Below are positions 5,625 to 28,027 of a stretch of 64,000 bases of DNA, piece by piece. The stretch's first letter is position 1, and the number at the start of each line of letters is the position of its first letter. The stretch covers positions 34,563 to 98,562 of the forward strand of contig VFGV01000020.1 of the NCBI GenBank assembly GCA_009392275.1, in the 5' to 3' direction. This DNA comes from SAR202 cluster bacterium. GTDB taxonomy: Bacteria > Chloroflexota > Dehalococcoidia > Lucifugimonadales > UBA2962. The notes beneath the pieces are model-generated. The model was not told the DNA's origin. It ran no database searches and saw nothing but the letters and a program-made list of their open reading frames with translations. The translations under genes and the position numbers were made by a program.

Positions 5625-7013
5625 ATGAAAATCACTAGCTTTGTAATTTTAGTAGTGTTGTCAGTCCTAATCACAGCATGTGGAACAACTGAAGTTACAA
5701 GTAACGAAACAAGTGCCAACGCGGAAGAACCTGACATCGAAGTGGTAATCTCTGAACCAATAGAAGACTCTGTTCCTGCAACACCAATACCCGAGGATAC
5801 GCCTGTTCCTGAGAATACTCCTACGCCGATACCGCCTACCGCAATACCTGCAACTCCTACTTTGGAGCCAGTAGAGGAAATTGTCGAGCCAGTAGAGGAA
5901 ATTGTCGAGCCAGATATTTCCGATGATACTACTAATAATACTGATGCTGATACGTCCACCTCATCTCCGATGGAAATAAATGAATGCTCTGATATTCCTG
6001 ATATGACTCAAAGAAGCATGTGTGAAATGGCAGAAAAGATGGGAATGAGTATGGAAGACATGATGGAAATGGCAGAAGAGATGGGCATGTTAGATGACAT
6101 GGATACGGGTGAGGATGATGTGATGACTATGGATATTGCAGATATGGAGGGAATGGGCGGCATTAACCCATGTCTCGAAGTAGAGGAGGAATATAGATCC
6201 CGATGTGAAGAATCCATTAGAAGAGAAGTTAAGCAAAATACTGAAGGAGAGAATCAGGAATCAGACGGATATTATATAGACGGGGATTTTGACCCCAACA
6301 ATTTACCTAAGGTGGCTAAGTCTAATTTTGTGGAACTCGACAAAATAGGACGAACTTCGAAACTTCGATCCGGTGTTGGTCATGATTATGCATTTAATAC
6401 ATCTGAATATGACCCCACTGGAGCAAGCTGCAGAAGCATGAAGCACTATATGATTCCTATCGGAGTGCCACTAGAAAATTCTTTATATTCGATAACTCCA
6501 CACACATTTGAGTGGATGTCGATAAAATTCTTTTCTCCGGTAGATGGAGTTGTGCAAGATGTAGTATATAGTTATAACTCTTACGGTCCTGAGGCTCAAT
6601 TCACTATAAGTTCTGATGACCATGCTGGATATTACTTCAATTTCTACCATGTAAATCTTGATCCAAGCTTAGTATTGGGAACTAAAGTAACGGCCGGTCA
6701 ATATATAGGACATTTAGGTAGCGAGGAAGCTTGGGTAGAAATCGGTGTTGAGGTTAGGGTAAATTCAAGGGAATCGCATTTGGTATCTTTTATACAAGTA
6801 GCTACAGATGAAGTTCTATCAGAATATCAATCCCGTGGACTAAATTCGTCGGCAGATGTAATAGTCACCAAAGAAGAGAGAGATGCTAAGCCGCTGGCAT
6901 GTGACAGGAACTCAGAGGCTGGGTGGTTTGAAGGTGGTGGCAGCTATAAGCCAACAGAATCATTTATGATATGGCAATTTGAGAGCGATGAAAATTGGTT
7001 CTTTTTCAACTAA
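5625..7013 (+). CDS. Lipoprotein with Pro/Glu-rich and Met/Asp-rich linkers and a degenerate M23-like C-terminal domain
   Basis: ORF; lipobox LITAC; GVVQDVVYSYNSYGPEAQFTISSD...YHVNLDPSLVLGTKVTAGQYIGHLG resembles the LytM/M23 barrel. Confidence 0.65.
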   Translation: MKITSFVILVVLSVLITACGTTEVTSNETSANAEEPDIEVVISEPIEDSVPATPIPEDTPVPENTPTPIPPTAIPATPTLEPVEEIVEPVEEIVEPDISDDTTNNTDADTSTSSPMEINECSDIPDMTQRSMCEMAEKMGMSMEDMMEMAEEMGMLDDMDTGEDDVMTMDIADMEGMGGINPCLEVEEEYRSRCEESIRREVKQNTEGENQESDGYYIDGDFDPNNLPKVAKSNFVELDKIGRTSKLRSGVGHDYAFNTSEYDPTGASCRSMKHYMIPIGVPLENSLYSITPHTFEWMSIKFFSPVDGVVQDVVYSYNSYGPEAQFTISSDDHAGYYFNFYHVNLDPSLVLGTKVTAGQYIGHLGSEEAWVEIGVEVRVNSRESHLVSFIQVATDEVLSEYQSRGLNSSADVIVTKEERDAKPLACDRNSEAGWFEGGGSYKPTESFMIWQFESDENWFFFN

Positions 7014-7017
7014 ATCT

Positions 7018-9327
7018 TTAAATTATCGCGTCAATTTTTTTTAACGATTCTATTTTCTTGATTGAATAGCCAAGTTCTGTTAACAATTCCTCAGAATGCT
7101 CTCCGAAATCAGGAGCCGAACGAATATTGGCGACCCTATTCGAATCAAAAATAAAAGGGGTGCCCATATGCTTTACAGAACCAACAAAAGTATGCGATTC
7201 AACGCTTAGTCCAGTCTTGATTGCATGAATATCTGAATGGATATCGATGGTATGGGACGATGCGGAGCACTCAACATCAACAAATTTTAAAACATTTAAG
7301 ACTTCATCTGTTTCAAGTTCTCCAATAACTTTTTCGAACTCTTCTGCAATTATCTTGTCATTTGTCTCTCTAAGTTTAAAATCACTATATTTTCGAGAAA
7401 GTGTATCCAATCCTAACGCCACACATGCACGTTTAAAACTATTGTCATCATGGCAAGATAGAAAAATATATCCATCTACTGTCTTATACAGCCGATATGT
7501 TGCGCATGGGCCATGTATGCTCACAGAACCTGTGGTTGATGTCCGATTAAAAAACTTCTGGAATTCTCCAGCCTGAATAGCTACAGCACCGTGTAGGAGA
7601 GATGTTTCAATATGTTGACCTAGGCCCGTTTTATTCTTCTCAACTAGAGCTGAAATTACGCCAAAGCTTGCTAACATTGCAGATGCATAATCTGCCATCG
7701 CTAACTTCAGGAAAACTGGATCACTTAAGCTTCCAGATTGCTCTATCATTGCACCAGACATAGCCTGAATTAAAGGATCAAATGCTGCTTTATCCTTCAT
7801 TGGACCTAACGAGCCGAAACCGGTCAAAGACAAATATATTAAACTAGGGTTTATTCTTACCAGGGTCTGATAGTCGATATTTAAAACCTTGGGAACTCCG
7901 GGACGATAGTTTTCCATAACTACATCTGCTTGTTTAACTAAATCATATAAAACAGATTTGCCTTGTTGGATTTTTAAATCAATTACAATTCCACGTTTAC
8001 CATGATTCCAAGTTTGAAAAGAACCACCTAAGGCTCGAAATCCGTCACCTGCTGGGGATTCAACTTTGACTACATCTGCTCCAAGTCGAGCTAAAATACT
8101 GGCCGCATAGGATCCGGAAATATAACCAGTCAAATCTATTATTTTTATATCTTTCAGCGGGCCTTGTTTTTTAAAATCATGTAAATGTTTCGATCCACTT
8201 TCCGGGGTAATCAACCGTTCTGCAATTGTAGAAACGGCCTCTTTAAAGCTTGTCTTTATAGGCCGACCACCAATCCGTCCAGGAGTGCGTTGAAACTTTA
8301 ATGGTAATCCTATTGTTTTTTTGTTGTTTGAGTTTAAATCAAACAAATCGTTCGCTACAATTTGGGGGTGGTCAACAAATACCTTTTTTGTGGAAGCTAT
8401 TATGCTGGGGACATCATATTGCTCGAATTGTTTCAGCCAATGTTCAGAGTCTCTCGTTATAACCACATCTTGAATCAGCTTTATTAAAATATCTCTATTA
8501 GCAAGCTGAAGGTTCCATGGAGCTCCATCAAATTTCGGATCACTTGCCCAATCTAATCTATCCAGAGCAATACAAAGTTTATTCCAGAATGTTTCGTTAC
8601 CACAAGCAATAAATATCCATTCACTATCAGCGCACTGGTAAAGTCTATAAACGGGATTTGCGCCTTTTTGATCTTTTGCATATCTTATCCAAGGAGTGAC
8701 ATTCGGTGACAAAACCATAGAACCACTAAACATAGCTATGGCCGAGTCATATAAAGATATATTTAATTTAAGACCCGATTGGCGTTTACTTCTTGACCAA
8801 AGTGCGGCTCCGATCCCATTTATACTAAGAAATGCAGCTCCATAGTTTGCTACCGGCAGATGAATAAAAACTGGAGATTGCTCCCACCCTCCCTGATCTC
8901 CATATAAACCAACATGATTGGATACAACACCCTCACCACCGGAGTTCTTAGCAAGTGGTCCAGTTTCACCAAATGGAGATATTACGCAATAAACTACATT
9001 ACTTTGTTTTAGTGCTAGTAAGTCGAAGTCAATAGGTTGATTAGTTTTTAGACTGGGCCGATATGTGTTAATCACGACATCGGAACTACACGCTAGTCTC
9101 AATATGTTTTCAATATCTGTTTTAGAAGTTGAGTCAGCATCAATGTAACACTTACCTCTATTCCACAGGTCAAACATCGAATCATTAAAATCAATCTCAG
9201 AAAACCCTAAGTTAATTCTTGTTACATCTGCACCCATGTCTGCCAGCATCATGCTTGCATAGGATCCGGCTAAGTCAGAATCCAAATCTAACACTTTTAA
9301 TCCTACATATGGCCCTGAATTTGACAT
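7018..9327 (-). CDS. Tandem-fused type III CoA-transferase (CaiB/BaiF) protein
   Basis: 769-aa ORF; two repeats each starting GLKVLDLDSDLAGSYASMMLADMGADV / DIKIIDLTGYISGSYAASILARLGADVVKVE. Confidence 0.9.
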   Translation of the reverse strand: MSNSGPYVGLKVLDLDSDLAGSYASMMLADMGADVTRINLGFSEIDFNDSMFDLWNRGKCYIDADSTSKTDIENILRLACSSDVVINTYRPSLKTNQPIDFDLLALKQSNVVYCVISPFGETGPLAKNSGGEGVVSNHVGLYGDQGGWEQSPVFIHLPVANYGAAFLSINGIGAALWSRSKRQSGLKLNISLYDSAIAMFSGSMVLSPNVTPWIRYAKDQKGANPVYRLYQCADSEWIFIACGNETFWNKLCIALDRLDWASDPKFDGAPWNLQLANRDILIKLIQDVVITRDSEHWLKQFEQYDVPSIIASTKKVFVDHPQIVANDLFDLNSNNKKTIGLPLKFQRTPGRIGGRPIKTSFKEAVSTIAERLITPESGSKHLHDFKKQGPLKDIKIIDLTGYISGSYAASILARLGADVVKVESPAGDGFRALGGSFQTWNHGKRGIVIDLKIQQGKSVLYDLVKQADVVMENYRPGVPKVLNIDYQTLVRINPSLIYLSLTGFGSLGPMKDKAAFDPLIQAMSGAMIEQSGSLSDPVFLKLAMADYASAMLASFGVISALVEKNKTGLGQHIETSLLHGAVAIQAGEFQKFFNRTSTTGSVSIHGPCATYRLYKTVDGYIFLSCHDDNSFKRACVALGLDTLSRKYSDFKLRETNDKIIAEEFEKVIGELETDEVLNVLKFVDVECSASSHTIDIHSDIHAIKTGLSVESHTFVGSVKHMGTPFIFDSNRVANIRSAPDFGEHSEELLTELGYSIKKIESLKKIDAII

Positions 9328-17008: not shown

Positions 17009-17226
17009 TAAATTCTAAACCTGTTTTCATCTAGAATAGATTGCTACAACAATAGATACTCTAATAGATTATATTCTACATACTATTTGTTTTTGTAGTT
17101 TATATTTGACAATCGTTGTCTCACTAAGTAGACTGTAATAGTGTCGAATATATAACACATTGCTTCATCAATTGTGGTTTATATAGTTTAGGCATAGCTC
17201 TAAATCAAACTTAAGGAGATTACAAT

Positions 17227-18273
17227 TTGATGAGTATTAATTTTTTCCAACAGTGGATCAATTATCGAAATACTAAAGCCCTAGTAATTATGGGAATCTT
17301 AGCAATTCTCGGCTCCATTTTAGTGGCCTGTAGCGAAGAGGCTGCTACTGAAGAAATGGTGGAGCAGGAAACGATGGTTGAACAAGAAATGGCTGTGGAG
17401 GCAACTGTCGTAGTTGAGGAAGTAGTCGAAGAAGTAAGCAAAACCATTGTAGATATAGCTGTCGAAGACGGCAGATTCACTACACTGGTAGCAGCATTAC
17501 AAGCAGCAGAACTTGATTCTGTGTTAGCTGGAGAGGGTCCATTTACCGTATTCGCTCCAACCGATGATGCTTTCGCCAAATTACCTGAGGGTACAGTTGC
17601 CTCTCTGCTGGAAACAATACCAGCATTGAAAGACATCCTGTTATATCACGTGGTAAGCGGTGATGTGCTTGCTGCAGACGTAGTTACGCTTGAATCAGCT
17701 ACAACCTTACAAGGTCAAACTGTTTCTATTTCCGCGATGGGAGATGTTGTGAAAATCAATGATTCCCAAGTCATAATCACTGACATCCAGGGTAGCAACG
17801 GAACAATCCATGTGATTGATACCGTACTTCTGCCTCCAGCTGAGGAAGTAGTCGAAGAAGTAAGCAAAACCATTGTAGATATAGCTGTCGAAGACGGCAG
17901 ATTCACTACACTGGTAGCAGCATTACAAGCAGCAGAACTTGATTCTGTGTTAGCTGGAGAGGGTCCATTTACCGTATTCGCTCCAACCGATGATGCTTTC
18001 GCCAAATTACCTGAGGGTACAGTTGCCTCTCTGCTGGAAACAATACCAGCATTGAAAGACATCCTGTTATATCACGTGGTAAGCGGTGATGTGCTTGCTG
18101 CAGACGTAGTTACGCTTGAATCAGCTACAACCTTACAAGGTCAAACTGTTTCTATTTCCGCGATGGGAGATGTTGTGAAAATCAATGATTCCCAAGTCAT
18201 AATCACTGACATCCAGGGTAGCAACGGAACAATCCATGTGATTGATACCGTACTTCTGCCTCCAGCTGAGTAA
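17227..18273 (+). CDS. Lipoprotein with two tandem fasciclin (FAS1) domains
   Basis: ORF; lipobox SILVACSEE; two copies of TIVDIAVEDGRFTTLVAALQAAELDSVL...GPFTVFAPTDDAFAKLPEG...LLYHVVSGDVLAADVV. Confidence 0.95.
   Translation: MMSINFFQQWINYRNTKALVIMGILAILGSILVACSEEAATEEMVEQETMVEQEMAVEATVVVEEVVEEVSKTIVDIAVEDGRFTTLVAALQAAELDSVLAGEGPFTVFAPTDDAFAKLPEGTVASLLETIPALKDILLYHVVSGDVLAADVVTLESATTLQGQTVSISAMGDVVKINDSQVIITDIQGSNGTIHVIDTVLLPPAEEVVEEVSKTIVDIAVEDGRFTTLVAALQAAELDSVLAGEGPFTVFAPTDDAFAKLPEGTVASLLETIPALKDILLYHVVSGDVLAADVVTLESATTLQGQTVSISAMGDVVKINDSQVIITDIQGSNGTIHVIDTVLLPPAE
17415..18270 (+). repeat. Apparently exact 426-bp tandem duplication (142 aa = one FAS1 domain plus linker)
   Basis: 17415-17840 and 17841-18266 align by eye with no difference seen; the third unit begins TGAG and stops. 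Confidence 0.95.
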
Positions 18274-18364: not shown

Positions 18365-19282
18365 TTATAAACTGGATTGCTGGTCTGGATGACTGGGATC
18401 GAACCAGCGACCTCCTGGTTTTAGTCCTAGGTTTAGAGCTTTATATATTCTCAATACTGCCCCAAAAGTTACATTCTGCTTGCCTTGCTCTAAAGCACTT
18501 ATATATGTCCGATCAAGTTCAGAAGCATTCGCAAGATCTTGCTGTGTCATCTGTTTCTCTAACCTTGCAGCCCTGATTCTAGATCCAAGGGCAGCTAAAT
18601 GTTCCTCCAAAGTGAATCCCCCATCGGTAATTCCGACCAAACTTCTAGCCTGCGTTACGCCTTCGAAAATATTTAATGCCACTGCGTCACAGTTAAGGGA
18701 ATTTAGTTCAACCTCCCCACTAGTCAAAGCTAGGCCACCGATCAATATTTTAGGACTGGGGCTTATCGATTTCAAAGCACGTATTATAGATTTAGCATTG
18801 TTTATATAAGTTGGTATTGTGACAGAAATACCCACCATATCCACAGATCTGTTCTTAACAAACTCAACAAGATCTTTCCCTGGGGTAGGGCCTCCCATAA
18901 AATCAACTTCCCATCCATCAATAATCAAAAAATCACTTAGCATCCTGGATCCCACCATATGAGTATCTCCCTCAACAGGTACAACAACTGCCCTAAATCC
19001 ATTAGATTTACGCATCGTACTGGCCTGTGCTCTCAACTCGCTCATTATTTCTAGAGTAATTACCGTGCCCAGGTGTTCGACTCCGATATTAATTTCTCCA
19101 TCATGCCACATTTGCCCTATAACAGATTGGGAATAAGCTAATAGGTCAACATAAACAGCCTGAATTTCAAGTCCTCTATTCTGAGCATCGGACACAGCTC
19201 GCCTGGCCTTATCTGCATCTCCACCTAGTAATGCAGCAACATACCGATTTCTCAAAATTTCCAAATCTTGACTTGTACCCAT
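18365..19282 (-). CDS. Cobalamin-binding (CarH/LitR-like) photosensor domain fused to C-terminal XRE-type HTH regulator
   Basis: ORF; W-x9-EH (WHDGEINIGVEH), EGDTHMVGSRML and SVTIPTYI...LIGGLAL B12-binding motifs; C-terminal LGSRIRAARLEKQMTQQDLANASELDRTYISALEQGKQNVTFGAVLRIYKAL HTH_3. Confidence 0.88.
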   Translation of the reverse strand: MGTSQDLEILRNRYVAALLGGDADKARRAVSDAQNRGLEIQAVYVDLLAYSQSVIGQMWHDGEINIGVEHLGTVITLEIMSELRAQASTMRKSNGFRAVVVPVEGDTHMVGSRMLSDFLIIDGWEVDFMGGPTPGKDLVEFVKNRSVDMVGISVTIPTYINNAKSIIRALKSISPSPKILIGGLALTSGEVELNSLNCDAVALNIFEGVTQARSLVGITDGGFTLEEHLAALGSRIRAARLEKQMTQQDLANASELDRTYISALEQGKQNVTFGAVLRIYKALNLGLKPGGRWFDPSHPDQQSSL

Positions 19283-19317
19283 AAAAGGACTCCCGTTATA
19301 AATTATCTATTTTGTAG

Positions 19318-19353
19318 AATATAGTTGACATCTCTTTGTTGTCATGTTACATT
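19318..19353. promoter_or_regulatory. Overlapping divergent promoters sharing an inverted repeat
   Basis: Plus: TTGACA(19325-19330)-N17-TACATT(19348-19353). Minus: ATGACA(19345-19340)-N16-TATATT(19323-19318). TGACA-N9-TGTCA inverted repeat at 19326-19344. Confidence 0.55.
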
Positions 19354-19470
19354 TATACCATATTAATGTAGATTATATGAGACATTGATATTCATACGAG
19401 CTATAAATAAGCTACACATAAGCATATCAGATGTCAAATATTAACGACAAACTGACATGGAGTAAACGAA

Positions 19471-19659
19471 ATGATTTTGTTAAAGGGCTGCGGTAGGTGT
19501 GACGGTGACATTGTGATGAGGGGTGATATACATGGCAAATACCTGCAATGCTTGATGTGCAGCCGAGTAAAATATATAGAGACTACGCCAGAGATTAGTG
19601 CTCGTCGTAGCCACACTCGCCGTAGGTTATTTAAACCAACCGACTTTGTTGCGATATAG
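19471..19659 (+). CDS. Small zinc-ribbon-like protein (62 aa)
   Basis: ORF with upstream GGAG; CGRCDGDIVMRGDIHGKYLQCLMC CxxC...CxxC. Confidence 0.6.
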   Translation: MILLKGCGRCDGDIVMRGDIHGKYLQCLMCSRVKYIETTPEISARRSHTRRRLFKPTDFVAI

Positions 19660-19850: not shown

Positions 19851-20972
19851 ATGCATTGGGCAATAGAAAAAGAAGATAGAACAGATAGTGATCCAACAGG
19901 AGTTGACGGCTTCGTGAAGCGCATGGAGAGTGAGCTTCGAGGAGACGGACCTCCTATGGAGGGTTTCCACTTCCTTAATACTCCTATGGACATGTTAACG
20001 TTCACACGAGAAATCGAGGACGAAATTCGGTCTAGGGAGCAGGGAGCTGATCTATACGTTGGATTTCAAACAGCTGAAAAGATGATCATTGAGGGCAAGC
20101 GGTACCAAAAAATCGATCAGGCTGGGGCTAAGGTAGTCGCTTTTGGACAGGGGGTACCGCCCGAAACGGTTATCCCTTCCGACATGCAATGGGTAACTCT
20201 TGAACGGAGTACAACCGCGCTAGCGAATCAGTGGTACTTAATTTCCACCAGACCTACACCGATTGGATTTGTAGCATGGGAAACCTCGGCTGAAGACCGG
20301 TTCGCCAAAGGAGGACTGTCCGAACCAGGCAAAATGTTCAAAGGATTTGCTACCAATGACACACGAGTCATAAATGCAATTGTTAGCCACCTGGAAGACT
20401 TGAACCAACAAAATCTGTCATTAGAAAGTGCTCGAACTGCTCTGAAAACGCAATTGAAAACTCCGATAAAAAAGATCATGACGCTAACGGAAAGATCAGA
20501 ATCAGTTCTTATGAAACTTTTAAGAAGCCAGGCAGCACAACTTGCTAATTCTAATGCAGCGGAATTGATTTTATTTGAATTAACTGCTGCATCATACTTG
20601 GCAAGCCCGTACCCAGAAGAGGATCGAAGCAAGTGGATCCGAATACTAAATGAACGTGACTTAATGCTGTTCGGTCGGTCGCCGATCGCAAAACAGCTAA
20701 ATCAACTCGAAACCAGTGGAATTTCAGCTGGAGCAATCCTCCCGACAACTCATGGATTTAGACATCTTGCCGAATGGGCTGAAAAAGAGAATATTGACGT
20801 GATTATCATACCTTTTTCATTAGTAGATCCAGGATTACTGGAAAGATTGCGTGGATATAGTCTTAGGCAGTTGCTTGAAAACACATCAAAGCAAGTAGTG
20901 GTAGTAGATGAAGATGGCACGATGTGGCATGCAAATCCCGGATCACTTCCTGCTGGCGACCAAGTTGCTTAA
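19851..20972 (+). CDS. DICT-like sensory domain protein with USP-like C-terminal region
   Basis: ORF; MLTFTREIEDEIRSREQGADLYVGFQTAEKMIIEGKRYQKIDQAGAKVVAFG resembles DICT; C-terminal IDVIIIPFSLVDPGLLERLRGYSLRQLLENTSKQVVVV resembles a USP fold. Confidence 0.65.
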   Translation: MHWAIEKEDRTDSDPTGVDGFVKRMESELRGDGPPMEGFHFLNTPMDMLTFTREIEDEIRSREQGADLYVGFQTAEKMIIEGKRYQKIDQAGAKVVAFGQGVPPETVIPSDMQWVTLERSTTALANQWYLISTRPTPIGFVAWETSAEDRFAKGGLSEPGKMFKGFATNDTRVINAIVSHLEDLNQQNLSLESARTALKTQLKTPIKKIMTLTERSESVLMKLLRSQAAQLANSNAAELILFELTAASYLASPYPEEDRSKWIRILNERDLMLFGRSPIAKQLNQLETSGISAGAILPTTHGFRHLAEWAEKENIDVIIIPFSLVDPGLLERLRGYSLRQLLENTSKQVVVVDEDGTMWHANPGSLPAGDQVA

Positions 20973-21004
20973 TTAAATTATTAGATAACTACCGGATCAA
21001 AATA

Positions 21005-22459
21005 ATGACTTATTCAACAAACCCAACAGTAGTATGGTTCAGACGAGATCTACGTTTATCAGACAACAGAGCTCTAACTGAAGCGGTAACCAAGCATGCT
21101 CCTATTCTCCCAATATACATATGGGGATATGAGGGTGATTTGACCGCATCAAACAAAACTAGATCAGTTTGGTGGCTTTTAAAGTCTCTTCGAAACCTAG
21201 ATCATGACTTAAAGTTAGTTGGCTCAAAATTAGTGATACTCAAGGGAAACCCTTTAGGTGTTATTTCTAAACTTGCGTATCAAATATCGCCTCGAGCCAT
21301 ATACTGGAACAAAGTCTACGAGCCAAACCGAATATCACTCGACAGAAAGATTTCTCTTCGTCTAGATAATCTCAATATAGAACACAGTTCGTTTGAGGGA
21401 CACCTGTTATGGAACCCGGAGGAAATAAGAAATGTTGACGGTGGCCATTACCAAACTTTTACTGCTTTCTGGAATAAAGCAAACAAATTACCTATGTTTG
21501 GAGCCAGTTCGCAAAAACCCAATGTTTTACCTATGCCCTTGTTTGATCACGACAGTATTTCTATAGATGAGCTCGAGAGAAACACGACGGCCAGCAGGAA
21601 TAAGAACTTAGTAAATTACTGGTCTCCAAGCGAAGATAGTGCAAACCAACTTTTGGGCAACTTTATCTCAACGAAACTAGAGGTATATGAAAAGACTCGA
21701 AACATACCTCACATCAGCAATTCAAAGTTATCACCATATATCCACTTCGGCCAGGTAAGCCCTTTTACGATTTGGTCAAGAACTATATCTGAGCTAGAAA
21801 ACATAGATGCTCAAAATCAATTTTTGAAACAACTTGCTTGGCGTGACTTTGCCCACTATGTGCTAATCCATAATCCCGGGGCAATCAATAACCCAATCAA
21901 ACCACAATTTCAGCGGTTTCCTTGGGTAAATGACCCCAAAGGTTTCAGCTCTTGGAAATTAGGTGAAACAGGTTACCCAATAGTTGATGCTGGTTTGAGG
22001 GAACTATCTGAAACTGGATTCATGCATAATCGGGTGAGAATGGTCGCAGCTTCATTTTTAACCAAACACCTGTTAATTCACTGGAATAAAGGAGCCAGAC
22101 ACTTTGAAGATATGTTGGTTGATGCCGATCTGGCAAACAACATTATGGGTTGGCAATGGGTTGCAGGAACTGGAACTGACTCGATGCCTTACTTCCGCAT
22201 ATTTAATCCAACACTTCAAGGAAAACGTTTTGATCCACACGGAAAGTATGTGAAACGATGGATACCAGAACTATCCAAAATTCCGCAAGTTTGGGTGCAC
22301 CAGCCTTGGCAGAGCCCTGAGAGAACGCTAAGCATGGTTGGAATTAAATTAGGTAAAACATACCCATTCCCCATTATTGATCACGATATGGCCAGAGTTA
22401 GGGCTCTTGACGCATACAAAGTAACGCAATTAACAAACAAAGTTAGTCAATTAATTTAG
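21005..22459 (+). CDS. phr: Deoxyribodipyrimidine photo-lyase / cryptochrome family
   Basis: ORF (ATG at 21005 preferred over 20924); VVWFRRDLRLSDNRAL, LAWRDFAHYVL, FPWVNDPKGFSSWKLGETGYPIVDAGLREL, HNRVRMVAASFLTKHLLIHW, NNIMGWQWVAGTGTDSMPYFRIFNP. Confidence 0.97.
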   Translation: MTYSTNPTVVWFRRDLRLSDNRALTEAVTKHAPILPIYIWGYEGDLTASNKTRSVWWLLKSLRNLDHDLKLVGSKLVILKGNPLGVISKLAYQISPRAIYWNKVYEPNRISLDRKISLRLDNLNIEHSSFEGHLLWNPEEIRNVDGGHYQTFTAFWNKANKLPMFGASSQKPNVLPMPLFDHDSISIDELERNTTASRNKNLVNYWSPSEDSANQLLGNFISTKLEVYEKTRNIPHISNSKLSPYIHFGQVSPFTIWSRTISELENIDAQNQFLKQLAWRDFAHYVLIHNPGAINNPIKPQFQRFPWVNDPKGFSSWKLGETGYPIVDAGLRELSETGFMHNRVRMVAASFLTKHLLIHWNKGARHFEDMLVDADLANNIMGWQWVAGTGTDSMPYFRIFNPTLQGKRFDPHGKYVKRWIPELSKIPQVWVHQPWQSPERTLSMVGIKLGKTYPFPIIDHDMARVRALDAYKVTQLTNKVSQLI

Positions 22460-22484: not shown

Positions 22485-22688
22485 ATGGACAACGAAAAAA
22501 CAACTTGGATAAATATTGCAGAAGGTCTGTATGAATTTTTAAATCGCAACCAAACCACAATACAATACACATTCAAAGACATGACGGTTGCTGTTCCACA
22601 AGACACTGGCGATAATGCGCCATCTGCCAAATGGCATATTGATGGAACGATAAGGGTAAACACTTGGGAAGGCAATGCATCAGAGTAA
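22485..22688 (+). CDS. Small uncharacterised protein (67 aa)
   Basis: ORF preceded by strong RBS AAAGGAGGTCCAAAATG. Confidence 0.65.
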   Translation: MDNEKTTWINIAEGLYEFLNRNQTTIQYTFKDMTVAVPQDTGDNAPSAKWHIDGTIRVNTWEGNASE

Positions 22689-23055
22689 TGTGCCTGATCA
22701 ACTGACAAAGATAGTTCTGTCTGGAATACTCGATGTACAAATTGGCAAGGCAACTGCCAAAATTCAAGCAGAGGGAGACGTTATTACAGTTGAGCTGAAT
22801 AGTTTTTTCAATTGGATTCCGTTGCTAAGATCACCGGCATTGAAAACATTATTTCAACTAAAACGATTACCTTCATTCCTTGAAAACCTTGGCATTACAA
22901 TCAACATTAATCATGGGCGAACTCCGATTGTGTCTATAGGGTCACGTGTTAATGCAGATAACCAAAACGTAAAAATAATTGGTCCAAATATAGCAATCAA
23001 TAATTCAATTTGGTGGCTCAGAACTGTATCAAATATCTTTAAAGGCCAGCTGTAA
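22675..23055 (+). CDS. Small uncharacterised protein (126 aa), overlaps preceding ORF
   Basis: ORF overlapping previous by 14 nt and ending just before the next gene; no family recognised. Confidence 0.6.
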   Translation: MHQSNVPDQLTKIVLSGILDVQIGKATAKIQAEGDVITVELNSFFNWIPLLRSPALKTLFQLKRLPSFLENLGITININHGRTPIVSIGSRVNADNQNVKIIGPNIAINNSIWWLRTVSNIFKGQL

Positions 23056-23056
23056 T

Positions 23057-24541
23057 ATGAGTAGTTCTCAACAAACTCAGACTGCAAATAAATCAAAACA
23101 AATTGTTTTGATCACCGGTGCCACTGGTTATGTTGGAGGTCGTCTGCTGAAAAGATTGGAGGGTAGAAAACTATCAATTAGATGTATTGCTCGTAATCCT
23201 GAGTACCTAATGCCTCGAATCGATTCAAATACCGAAGTAATTCCAGGAGATGTATTAGACTCACAAACTCTGGGATTAGTTATGAAAAACGTCACAACGG
23301 CTTTTTATCTAATTCACGCTATGGGTAAATCGAAAAACTTTGAGCACGACGAACTTTTGGGCGCTCGTAATTTTGGATATGCAGCGAAACAAGCAGGTGT
23401 AAAAAGAATCATATATCTTGGCGGCATAATAAATCAGGATGAACAATTGTCACCGCACCTGAGAAGTCGTAAAGCCGTTGGTGAAGCGCTTAGAGAATCG
23501 GGAGTTGAGATTATTGAGCTGAGAGCCTCCATAATAATTGGTGCAGGAAGCGCTTCATTTGACATGATAAGAGCTTTAGTTGAACGCCTCCCAATAATGC
23601 TGATGCCTAGATGGGTCTCAACACCTGCTCAACCAATTGGTATTAAAGACGTTCTAGACTACCTTGAGGAATCCATCGAGATTGACACACAAGGGCGAAC
23701 TATTTTTGAGATTGGCGGCTCTAAAGCTTTGTCATACCGAAGCATGATGGAAGAGTACGGTTTGCAACGTGGTTTGCGTCGACTGATGATTCCTGTGCCT
23801 GTACTGACTCCAAGGCTATCTAGCCTGTGGCTTGGTTTAGTTACTCCATTGTATGCCAGGGTTGGACGAACTCTGATTGATAGCATAAAACACTCAACAG
23901 TAGTTCGTGATCACGCGGCCAGATCTATATTTAAAATCACCCCTATGTCACCTGAAGACGCTATTCGCCTTGCTTTAAAACATGAGAGGGAAGAAATAGA
24001 GCAAAGTAATTGGGCTGATGCTGTGTCATCATCTGGAATTCCAATGCGTTGGGGGGGGGTCCGCCTCGGATCAAGAATAGTAGACATGCGTAAAATTAAT
24101 GTAAACGCTTCTCGAGAACAAGCTTTTCGGCCAATTAGGCTAATTGGTGGAGATTCAGGATGGTACTATGGCAACTGGCTATGGCGCCTCAGAGGATGGA
24201 TGGATCTCCTCGTCGGCGGAGTCGGTCTGCGGAGAGGAAGAAGATACCCAAACAAGATAACTACTGGAGACTACCTTGACTGGTGGAGAGTGAATCTTTA
24301 TGAGAAAGATCATCGGCTAGTTTTAGAAGCTGAAATGAAAACCCCGGGGCGTGCCTGGCTAAGCTTCGAAGTGAAACAAACAAATCAAGGGTGCCAAATT
24401 ATCCAAACTGCCGCATTTCAACCGGTTGGTTTGCTAGGTTTGGCATATTGGTATTGCCTGTACCCAATTCATTCTGTGATGTTTAGAGGAATGTTAAATG
24501 GTATCGCCAGGCAAGCACTATCACCGGTAACACGAATTTAA
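23057..24541 (+). CDS. NAD(P)H-binding SDR-type epimerase with C-terminal DUF2867-like domain
   Basis: ORF; VLITGATGYVGGRLLKRLEGR (N-term), RLIGGDSGWYYGNWLWRLRGWMDLLVGGVGLRRGRR...GDYLDWWRV (C-term). Confidence 0.85.
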   Translation: MSSSQQTQTANKSKQIVLITGATGYVGGRLLKRLEGRKLSIRCIARNPEYLMPRIDSNTEVIPGDVLDSQTLGLVMKNVTTAFYLIHAMGKSKNFEHDELLGARNFGYAAKQAGVKRIIYLGGIINQDEQLSPHLRSRKAVGEALRESGVEIIELRASIIIGAGSASFDMIRALVERLPIMLMPRWVSTPAQPIGIKDVLDYLEESIEIDTQGRTIFEIGGSKALSYRSMMEEYGLQRGLRRLMIPVPVLTPRLSSLWLGLVTPLYARVGRTLIDSIKHSTVVRDHAARSIFKITPMSPEDAIRLALKHEREEIEQSNWADAVSSSGIPMRWGGVRLGSRIVDMRKINVNASREQAFRPIRLIGGDSGWYYGNWLWRLRGWMDLLVGGVGLRRGRRYPNKITTGDYLDWWRVNLYEKDHRLVLEAEMKTPGRAWLSFEVKQTNQGCQIIQTAAFQPVGLLGLAYWYCLYPIHSVMFRGMLNGIARQALSPVTRI

Positions 24542-25522: not shown

Positions 25523-25996
25523 ATGAGTAAATCAGAATCACAATTCAAAATAAGAAAAGCCACTAATGAAGATATAGATATACTCGCGATTTTTTCGTTA
25601 GCGGTGATAAAAGAGGGCGATGGGGTTTCTATACCTTCTGAACACGTCAAACCCGGAATTGAAGCCGTCCTTAAAGATGAGAGTAAGGGCTTTTATTTGG
25701 TAGCTACTGCGGATGACAATTCCGATCCCATCGGATGCCTTATGGTAACCTTCGAATGGAGTGATGTGAACAATGGCTTTTACTGGTGGATTCAAAGCGT
25801 ATACGTTGATCCAAAATGGAGGCGCAAGGGTGTATATTCTGCTTTGCACAACCGAATAATAAAATTAGCAAAATCAACTGCAAACGTCACAAGAATAAAG
25901 CTATATGTCCATGAAACAAACATAACAGCGCAAACGACATACATGGCACAAGGCATGAAAGAAGCTCCTCACAAAATTTTTGAATTCTACCTTTAA
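25523..25996 (+). CDS. GNAT family N-acetyltransferase
   Basis: ORF; VYVDPKWRRKGVYSALHNRIIKLAK acetyl-CoA binding motif. Confidence 0.88.
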   Translation: MSKSESQFKIRKATNEDIDILAIFSLAVIKEGDGVSIPSEHVKPGIEAVLKDESKGFYLVATADDNSDPIGCLMVTFEWSDVNNGFYWWIQSVYVDPKWRRKGVYSALHNRIIKLAKSTANVTRIKLYVHETNITAQTTYMAQGMKEAPHKIFEFYL

Positions 25997-26001
25997 CAGA
26001 A

Positions 26002-26463
26002 TTAAATTTTAAATTCATACATAAAATTCGAAGTGTCTATCATGCCCAATCTTTTGTAAATTTTTTGCGCATTTAGATTGTCGTCATTTACATGGATCTT
26101 TATAGTACAAACATTACCTTTGTCTTTAGCCATCTTGATAGTATGTTTGTATAGGGCTTGGAATACACCTTTTCTCCTCCAATTACTATCAACAAACACC
26201 TCTTGTATCCACCAGGTGAACGCATTGTTACCTGGATCCCATTCATATGTAATCATCAGGCAGCCAATAAGGGTTGAATTATCTGATTCTGTGGCAACTA
26301 AATACATGCCTTTAGATCGATCTTTGATAGGTGCAGATACTCCAGACAACAGTTTATCTGAATGCACGGACATATCTAATGATTTCCTGAGCAACTCACA
26401 AAACTCTGCAAGTTTTTTAGCATCCTCTATGCGAGCTAATCGTATAGCAAATTTATTATCCAT
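26002..26463 (-). CDS. GNAT family N-acetyltransferase (paralog of the adjacent convergent gene)
   Basis: ORF; VFVDSNWRRKGVFQALYKHTIKMAK; clear similarity to 25523-25996. Confidence 0.88.
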   Translation of the reverse strand: MDNKFAIRLARIEDAKKLAEFCELLRKSLDMSVHSDKLLSGVSAPIKDRSKGMYLVATESDNSTLIGCLMITYEWDPGNNAFTWWIQEVFVDSNWRRKGVFQALYKHTIKMAKDKGNVCTIKIHVNDDNLNAQKIYKRLGMIDTSNFMYEFKI

Positions 26464-26539
26464 TGTGTTGTTAGAAATTTATTGTAGAAGATTTTATATA
26501 ATCAAACAAAGGAATATTCATTATTTACGAAATTAACGC

Positions 26540-28027
26540 ATGGCAAAAAATAAACATATATACATAATTGGAGCCGGGCCAGGAGGACTAGCCACAGGTA
26601 TTCTCTTGTCCAAATCAGGTGTAGATATAACTATATTAGAAAGGTCAAACACTGTAGGAGGTCGAACTTCATCAATATCAGAAAATGGCTTTAAATTCGA
26701 CCTGGGACCCACATTTTTTCTCTATCCGCAAGCTCTTGAAAAGATTTTTCAATCCGTTGGTCTTAATCTAATGGATGAAATAGAGATGGAACGACTTGAC
26801 CCTCAATACAGAATAATCTTTAAATCGGGCGGGCACATTGATGCTACAAACGACATAAAACTAATGAGCGATCAAATAAAGAATTTCGCTCCTGAAGATG
26901 CAAATGGCTTTAGTAAATTTATGGACGAAAACCGTGAAAAACTTGTAAAAATGGAACCATGTCTTACTAATCCATTTTTAAATATATTTTCATTAATTTC
27001 TCCACGTTTACTAAAACTACTGCCAATGGTTAAACCAAACCAAAGCCTTGATACATACTTGAAACGATTTTTTAAAGATCCACGTATAAGACTAGCTTTC
27101 AGTTTTCAGTCTAAATATTTAGGAATGTCTCCGTTCGTATGTCCTAGTTTATTTTCTATACTTTCATTCATTGAATATGAATATGGTATATATCATCCGA
27201 CAGGTGGCTGTAATGAAATCACCAAAGTCATGGCGCGGATAGCCAAGGAAAATGGAGTTGAAATCAAACTAAACGAGCCGGTCGAAGAAATACTTTTTGA
27301 TAAAAACAAAGCCACCGGGGTAAGAACAAATAAAGGAAATTATAGGGCCGATGCAATAGTGATGAATGCAGATTTCGCACGTGCGGCAAAGACTCTAATT
27401 CCAAACAGGAAAAGAAAACGATGGACAGATCAAAAAATCAGTAATAAAAACTTTTCGTGTTCGACATTTATGTTGTATCTAGGTATAGAAGGCCTTTATG
27501 ATGTCCCTCATCATAATATATATATTTCTGAAGATTACCAAAGCAATTTAGAAGATATAGAACGTCGGCATGTACTTAGTAAATTACCTTCATTTTACGT
27601 TCAAAATGCATGTGTAACTGATCCTTCATTAGCCCCTAAAGGAAATAGCACTTTATATGTATTAGTCCCAGTATCACATGAACATGAAAATATAGACTGG
27701 ACCGCAAATACAAGTAGTTATAGAAATCTGATAATACAAGAGTTAGAAAAGGTTGGGTTTACTAACTTAAAAAATAGAATTATTTATGAAAAAATAATTA
27801 CGCCTGCAAATTGGTCAAATCAGTACAACATTCACCTGGGTGCCACTTTTAATTTATCTCACAATTTGAAGCAAATGCTGTATCTCAGACCAAGAAACAG
27901 ATTTGAGGACTGTGAAGGAATATACCTTGTCGGCGGTGGAACTCACCCAGGCAGTGGATTACCAGTAATATTCGAGTCTGCTGGAATTACAAGTAAATTG
28001 ATAGCTGAAGATATCATCTTGAATTAG
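26540..28027 (+). CDS. Phytoene desaturase / CrtI-type carotenoid oxidoreductase family
   Basis: ORF; IYIIGAGPGGLATGILLSKSGVDITILERSNTVGGRTSS...FDLGPTFF and GIYLVGGGTHPGSGLPVIFESAGITSKLI. Confidence 0.9.
   Translation: MAKNKHIYIIGAGPGGLATGILLSKSGVDITILERSNTVGGRTSSISENGFKFDLGPTFFLYPQALEKIFQSVGLNLMDEIEMERLDPQYRIIFKSGGHIDATNDIKLMSDQIKNFAPEDANGFSKFMDENREKLVKMEPCLTNPFLNIFSLISPRLLKLLPMVKPNQSLDTYLKRFFKDPRIRLAFSFQSKYLGMSPFVCPSLFSILSFIEYEYGIYHPTGGCNEITKVMARIAKENGVEIKLNEPVEEILFDKNKATGVRTNKGNYRADAIVMNADFARAAKTLIPNRKRKRWTDQKISNKNFSCSTFMLYLGIEGLYDVPHHNIYISEDYQSNLEDIERRHVLSKLPSFYVQNACVTDPSLAPKGNSTLYVLVPVSHEHENIDWTANTSSYRNLIIQELEKVGFTNLKNRIIYEKIITPANWSNQYNIHLGATFNLSHNLKQMLYLRPRNRFEDCEGIYLVGGGTHPGSGLPVIFESAGITSKLIAEDIILN

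Follow-up and report, generated by a model that had tools for sequence, protein, structure and literature searches.

The window, by which is meant the whole 64,000-nucleotide stretch of SAR202 DNA that was analysed, carries on its minus strand a regulator gene (18365..19282) in which a CarH-like cobalamin-binding domain (CBD) is joined to a C-terminal XRE/HTH_3 DNA-binding domain. The ORF encodes 305 amino acids from an ATG start and lies exactly where an earlier note, made from the letters of the DNA, had placed it. That note had described a protein that begins at the B12 helical bundle, lacks an N-terminal MerR domain and ends in an HTH_3/XRE domain, and had named a domain search, an AlphaFold model and a survey of the architecture as ways of checking the assignment; all three support it. 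In Pfam, a B12-binding_2 helical bundle spans residues 11-83 (19034..19252, minus strand; PF02607, 2.8e-9), a Rossmann-like B12-binding domain residues 97-201 (18680..18994, minus strand; PF02310, 1.4e-18) and the XRE/HTH_3 domain residues 236-286 (18425..18577, minus strand; PF01381, 4.6e-9), each above its gathering score (for HTH_3, 36.6 bits against a cut-off of 23). In the same search no MerR model matched the 305-residue protein, the N-terminus of which is the B12 bundle itself, and the NCBIfam CarH equivalog NF052513 gave 48.8 bits against a cut-off of 400, over the cobalamin part only. With no MerR domain and a score below the family cut-off, the regulator falls outside the MerR-type CarH/LitR family. 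Its AlphaFold model, built with 43 relatives, has a mean pLDDT of 89.5, and the cobalamin part finds its best Foldseek matches in photocobilin 8j2w, the CBD of CtMerR (8jbs; TMt 0.82) and TtCarH (5c8a; TMt 0.88), so that the domain, as modelled, matches CarH, CtMerR and photocobilin structures. Past the CBD, Pfam and the model find a linker and HTH_3 only, with no bilin-binding domain.

The likeness to CarH extends to the residues that perceive light. In an explicit alignment to TtCarH, the reference sequence being that of Thermus thermophilus plasmid pTT27, G56, W59, H60, E69 and H70 of the window protein pair with G128, W131, H132, E141 and H142, and G105, H108, G130 and P134 with G174, H177, G199 and P203; G111, S153 and G182-183 likewise align. 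Every TtCarH photosensory residue checked (W131, H132, E141, H142 and H177) is present. In CarH these residues cap the adenosyl group and supply the lower ligand, and H132 is the bis-His ligand of the light state (PMC8156234). The first cluster forms the motif WH-x8-EH (W59, H60, E69, H70; 19073..19108, minus strand), and the W-x9-EH signature that the earlier note had read in the protein is indeed there, WHDGEINIGVEH being W59-x9-E69-H70 in register with W131, E141 and H142. The cobalamin motif proposed in the same note also exists, as G105-D-T-H108-M-V-G111 followed by S153-V-T and GG182-183, but its rendering as E-x-D-x-H is a poorer reading than the canonical D-x-H-x-x-G / GxxH. Further, the experimentally supported signature of light-responsive CBDs, GxxW, EH, GxxH and GxxxP (SignatureFinder, PMC11796333), is complete in the window protein as GQMW, EH, GDTH and GGPTP. 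All 44 aligned relatives have E69 and H108, 43 have H70, 42 have W59 and 39 have H60; W59, E69, H70 and H108 occur together in 41 and the full SignatureFinder set in 28. Given that E69 and H108 never vary, that W59 and H70 hardly do, and that B12-binding_2, B12-binding and HTH_3 are all matched in 44/44, the motif in the window protein is not a product of chance.

Between the regulator and a divergent zinc-ribbon gene lie 188 bp of intergenic DNA, strongly conserved in the genus, in which an imperfect 18-bp palindrome occurs three times: TGTAGAATATAGTTGACA (19313..19330), TGTAGATTATATGAGACA (19367..19384) and TGTCAAATATTAACGACA (19432..19449, 21 bp 5' of the zinc-ribbon start codon). The earlier note had pointed to the intergenic DNA at 19.3 kb, and a conserved operator-like palindrome is present there, for which no binding data exist. 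A first operator guess, TACATT-N11-AATGTA (19348-19370), was rejected, with one exact genome match and, at one mismatch or fewer, 10 matches for the pattern against 16 for the control. Three further copies lie 5' of a plus-strand gene for a lipoprotein with two near-identical fasciclin (FAS1) domains, a putative regulated gene (17227..18273). These are AATAGATTATATTCTACA (17063..17080), TGTAGTTTATATTTGACA (17094..17111) and TGTCGAATATATAACACA (17142..17159); the sites played no part in building the matrix and are conserved in genome G002. There the fasciclin relative has a single FAS1 domain (206 aa), so that the tandem duplication in the window seems to be of recent date. Carotenoid binding under photo-oxidative stress is known for some FAS1 proteins of algae (AstaP; PMC10147662).

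Both sets of palindromes meet promoter-like sequences. The last six bases of TGTAGAATATAGTTGACA are the -35 box of TTGACA-17-TACATT (19325..19353, plus strand), a consensus match only, directed toward the zinc ribbon, DICT and photolyase genes, and the TTGACA of TGTAGTTTATATTTGACA is the -35 of a plus-strand promoter before the fasciclin gene (17106-17134). Each is the best sigma-70-like sequence on its strand, with 10/12 matches, and at both the end of the palindrome falls exactly on the -35 hexamer; one palindrome also overlies the regulator's own -10-like hexamer. From this placement on the -35 hexamers, repression by polymerase blocking is predicted, as CarH does (PMC8156234).

The divergent gene run, all on the plus strand, comprises a small zinc-ribbon-like protein of 62 aa (19471..19659), conserved upstream of DICT or DUF2867 genes at three other loci (L055, L067 and L069); a DICT-domain protein (19851..20972), assigned by domain search and relatives; a DNA photolyase/cryptochrome (20924..22459), assigned by domain search and with its true start likely near 21005; a conserved hypothetical protein (22675..23055), also found in G002; and an NAD-binding and DUF2867 protein (23057..24541) of a kind that repeatedly adjoins photolyase near XRE-CBD regulators. 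The zinc-ribbon-like protein is at least 90% identical within the genus. DICT is a sensory domain with a predicted role in light response, a prediction quoted in PMC8612252.

The palindrome is not peculiar to the window. A first weight matrix, made from the three copies at the regulator alone, was applied to 43 regulators from outside the genus, in each case to the 300 bp upstream, and reached p<=0.05 at 20 of these loci (2.15 expected). The refined matrix, centred on approximately TGTMGAATATATTCKACA, reached p<=0.02 against dinucleotide shuffles at all 13 regulators among loci not used in building it, and in real upstream regions a score of at least 10 bits was found for 10/12 regulators as against 12/115 other ORFs of the same loci (Mann-Whitney 3.6e-7). 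Two of the 13 held-out loci are close relatives, the regulator shares some of the control regions, and the shuffle p-values treat related genomes as independent. Across genera, and in a Fraserbacteria genome, the site usually lies about 25-70 bp before the regulator start codon, the place expected for autoregulation. In the upstream scan it was weak or absent in one subclade (L074-L079 and L087-L092), which has a CMAS-DUF1365 neighbourhood. When the 64-kb window was scanned, six of the seven top sites were the three at the regulator and the three before the fasciclin gene; shuffled windows gave a mean of 0.17 sites of at least 14 bits. The same palindrome stands, in other genera, before zinc-ribbon/DICT genes (L067, L069) and before a zinc ribbon-DUF2867 run (L055).

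How far the regulon extends beyond these genes is a different matter. A whole-genome motif search gave 20 matches against 13 in the control, which is chance level outside the regulator and fasciclin clusters, and no wider regulon is therefore claimed. A crtI-family phytoene desaturase (26540..28027, plus strand) has a weak site at 26483-26500 that falls from 12.5 bits to 6.2 bits in G001, where it is not kept, so that crtI is only a possible target. An F420H2-dependent reductase (16580) has a site of 12.6 bits in the window and of 8.8-11.6 bits in relatives. Adjacent to one another at 25523-25996 and 26002-26463 are two mutually similar, convergent GNAT acetyltransferase genes, which are paired in G001 too.

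The XRE-CBD architecture is a widespread family and no one-off. It is complete in 14 of 60 order-mates, and a CBD and an HTH occur in a single protein in 69 of the 247 genomes of the order, a few of these proteins being fragments. One XRE peptide pattern, run against GTDB genomes, found 49 loci, mostly in SAR202 / Dehalococcoidia (Chloroflexota), with other hosts among Fraserbacteria, delta-proteobacterial or other proteobacterial MAGs and the planctomycete Uabimicrobium. When the CarH model was run against the 60 relatives, no MerR-CBD fusion appeared among the matches listed, only separate MerR or CBD matches. A CBD tree, with its long branches, did not resolve whether the XRE fusion arose once or descends from MerR-type CarH. 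In G002 the regulator (L002:1498-2415) has an in-frame TAG directly past the HTH domain that shortens only the non-conserved tail. Genome G086 has two regulator copies on contig C1, near 2045139 and 2688789, each about 5 kb from an equal-scoring photolyase, which suggests a duplicated segment.

The genomic context is linked to light. In 10 genomes of seven genera the start of a photolyase gene lies 1.3-7.2 kb from that of the regulator (the window and G002, G022 and G056, G086, G106, G134, G186 at L056, G195 and G243). The regulator occurs in 34 of the 41 genomes of the order that carry photolyase and in 35 of the 206 that do not (Fisher p ~5e-16), and at genus level the co-occurrence is 17/18 (p 5e-10). 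These p-values ignore phylogeny, and shared surface-ocean ancestry may partly explain the association; photolyase was undetected in 35 of the 69 regulator carriers. At L037/L038 and L134 the divergent operon encodes an FAD oxidoreductase, DUF1365, a polyketide-cyclase-like protein, photolyase and DUF2867, with an SDR as well at L037/L038. At L040, L042, L074, L076, L090 and L092 it encodes two CMAS-type methyltransferases, together with an FAD oxidoreductase and DUF1365 where the locus extends, and looks like a furan- or cyclopropane-lipid pathway. The latter operon also contains two uncharacterised proteins of about 360 and 180 aa and is divergent to an epimerase-DUF1731 fusion adjoining the regulator. 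At L055 the regulator is followed (6889-7869) by a 2-thiouracil desulfurase and DUF1722 protein, of a kind often encoded next to photolyase (ybgA-phr). Other members adjoin RND/MMPL transporters or cobT, not photolyase. The source genome itself encodes a cobalamin adenosyltransferase and two genes of the phytoene/squalene-synthase family.

Taken together, the domains, residue identities, fold, palindromes and their positions, neighbourhood and photolyase co-occurrence, all of which are observed, make it probable that the gene encodes a cobalamin-dependent photoreceptor that represses in the dark and is released by light. The earlier note had arrived at a B12-dependent, light-responsive repressor with an XRE head, and that proposal gains support from the same evidence. 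It remains a computational prediction, in which AdoCbl as the chromophore, its photolysis, the change of oligomer and the repression are all inferences. The CarH-type domain at the N-terminus would bind AdoCbl in the dark, with H108 as lower ligand and W59, E69 and H70 capping the adenosyl group, and the AdoCbl-bound domain would keep the protein oligomeric and so present paired C-terminal XRE heads. These heads are predicted to bind the 18-bp palindromes over the -35 boxes of the divergent zinc ribbon-DICT-photolyase-DUF2867 genes and the fasciclin gene, and at the regulator's own promoter, blocking RNA polymerase. Green or blue light would break the Co-C bond and rearrange the oligomer, possibly through H60/H108 bis-His ligation as in TtCarH, whereupon the DNA would be released and photoprotection genes expressed. 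One difficulty stands against the reading: TtCarH uses head-to-tail dimers on direct repeats, and it is unexplained how a CarH-type oligomer would occupy symmetric XRE sites.

The main rival is a sensor of cobalamin status, reporting the availability of B12 (AdoCbl) rather than light and controlling B12-related or transport genes. CBDs as a rule bind B12 without sensing light, and the efflux or transport genes near several family members fit such a role. A cobT-type phosphoribosyltransferase gene also lies beside or near the regulator at L036, L053, L089 and L148, hinting at a B12-related branch of the family. Against this, the W-x9-EH cap, which is specific to photoactive CBDs, and the lower His are retained nearly throughout, the co-occurrence and linkage with photolyase are very strong, and the palindromes of the window face photolyase/DICT and fasciclin genes, not B12 genes. 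The B12-status reading is thus unlikely, and disfavoured for the window's clade, while the use made of the protein in other subclades may have diverged. Nor is the direction of control beyond dispute, as the XRE head might instead recruit polymerase, binding in the light or when a certain form of cobalamin is present. XRE proteins, for example the controller proteins matched in the sequence search, can activate, and among three tandem palindromes activating positions are possible; an activator is nevertheless distinctly unlikely, given palindromes that end on TTGACA at two promoters and in one case cover the gene's own -10-like hexamer, which is the geometry of occlusion. That the palindrome belongs to another regulator, with the XRE-CBD protein acting elsewhere, cannot be countered with binding data, yet it is a rather remote prospect when the site is kept before the regulator itself in much of the family and across genera. 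An AerR-type redox/B12 co-regulator, with repression tuned by hydroxo- or methylcobalamin and no photolysis of AdoCbl, can hardly be maintained: AerR-related CBDs do occur in light and oxygen regulation and AerR 7te2 is a weak sequence match, but Novosphingobium AerR has V, T and E at the aligned E141, H142 and Pro columns; the window protein, by contrast, shows the photo-signature in full and carries its own DNA-binding domain.

A light-released dark repressor of this kind would have implications for SAR202 biology. The ocean holds large numbers of these bacteria, and light inhibits or kills the cultured strains, for reasons that are not understood (PMC10444878). The conserved B12 switch, together with its operator and target genes and with its light response inferred, offers a testable handle on how they deal with sunlight; its own target site and its link to genes for the repair of UV damage suggest, as a prediction, that it switches on sunlight-protection genes. 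For photobiology, the protein shows that an unrelated type of DNA-reading head can be joined to a CarH sensor at the opposite end, a pairing that provides a test of how oligomer changes in a CBD become DNA release. If its inferred light response holds, the protein also gives optogenetics a candidate green-light repressor whose operator is a short palindrome. Whether it stands for a separate class of B12 photoreceptor repressors is evenly balanced. Such a class would combine a CarH sensor, an XRE head, symmetric palindromes and a different oligomer geometry, and would be the main light switch of SAR202 Chloroflexota, controlling DICT-photolyase-DUF2867 genes, furan/cyclopropane-lipid operons and an exported fasciclin that may bind carotenoids. 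With symmetric palindromes in place of direct repeats, light would have to act in this class through that different geometry.

Among known systems, CarH/LitR proteins, with TtCarH as the example, are alike in the fold of the cobalamin domain, in every key photosensory residue (including, as in class I, a histidine beside the tryptophan, H60 corresponding to H132 of the bis-His light state) and in a gene divergent next to photolyase, and in Thermus to phytoene synthase as well. They differ in having an N-terminal MerR domain where this regulator has XRE at its C-terminus. Overlap of the palindromes with the -35 region suggests the repression by occlusion seen in CarH, but the operators differ, the putative one here, the conserved element found, being an 18-bp palindrome and that described for CarH 11-bp direct repeats, nAnnTnnACAn (PMC8156234). 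The light-induced LitR region of Pseudomonas comprises the phrB photolyase, an SDR, an FAD oxidoreductase and ufaM / furan-fatty-acid synthase (PMC9758184). These class II LitR/PplR operons resemble the surroundings of several family members, where FAD oxidoreductase, DUF1365, SDR, photolyase and CMAS-type methyltransferase recur; class II LitR itself is MerR-type with an only partly kept B12 domain, whereas the window regulator is XRE-type with an intact CBD. Photocobilins (8j2w/8j2x/8j2y) are its best PDB matches in sequence and fold and likewise consist of a CBD and then a further domain, but the window regulator has an XRE HTH as its C-terminal part and no bilin-binding domain. C.AhdI, C.BclI and SinR, XRE regulators of the controller/HipB-like group, in which palindromic operators are usual, share the HTH_3 domain and lack a cobalamin domain, while AerR-type co-regulators have a CBD without a DNA-binding domain of their own. 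The complete signature is shared with the light-responsive CBDs of SignatureFinder, of which the characterised CtMerR (8jbs) is a MerR protein and not XRE. Literature searches found nothing specific on XRE-type B12 photoreceptors, but light-signature CBDs fused to HTH domains at the N- or C-terminus were catalogued by database mining in 2024 (PMC11796333). The main text of that paper does not name XRE and gives no operator, regulon or taxon for the fusions (PMC11796333). The earlier note's claim of a distinct class consequently stands for the DNA-reading part and the operator and not for HTH fusion as such: the architecture is not wholly new, and what is new is the operator, the regulon and the distribution in SAR202.
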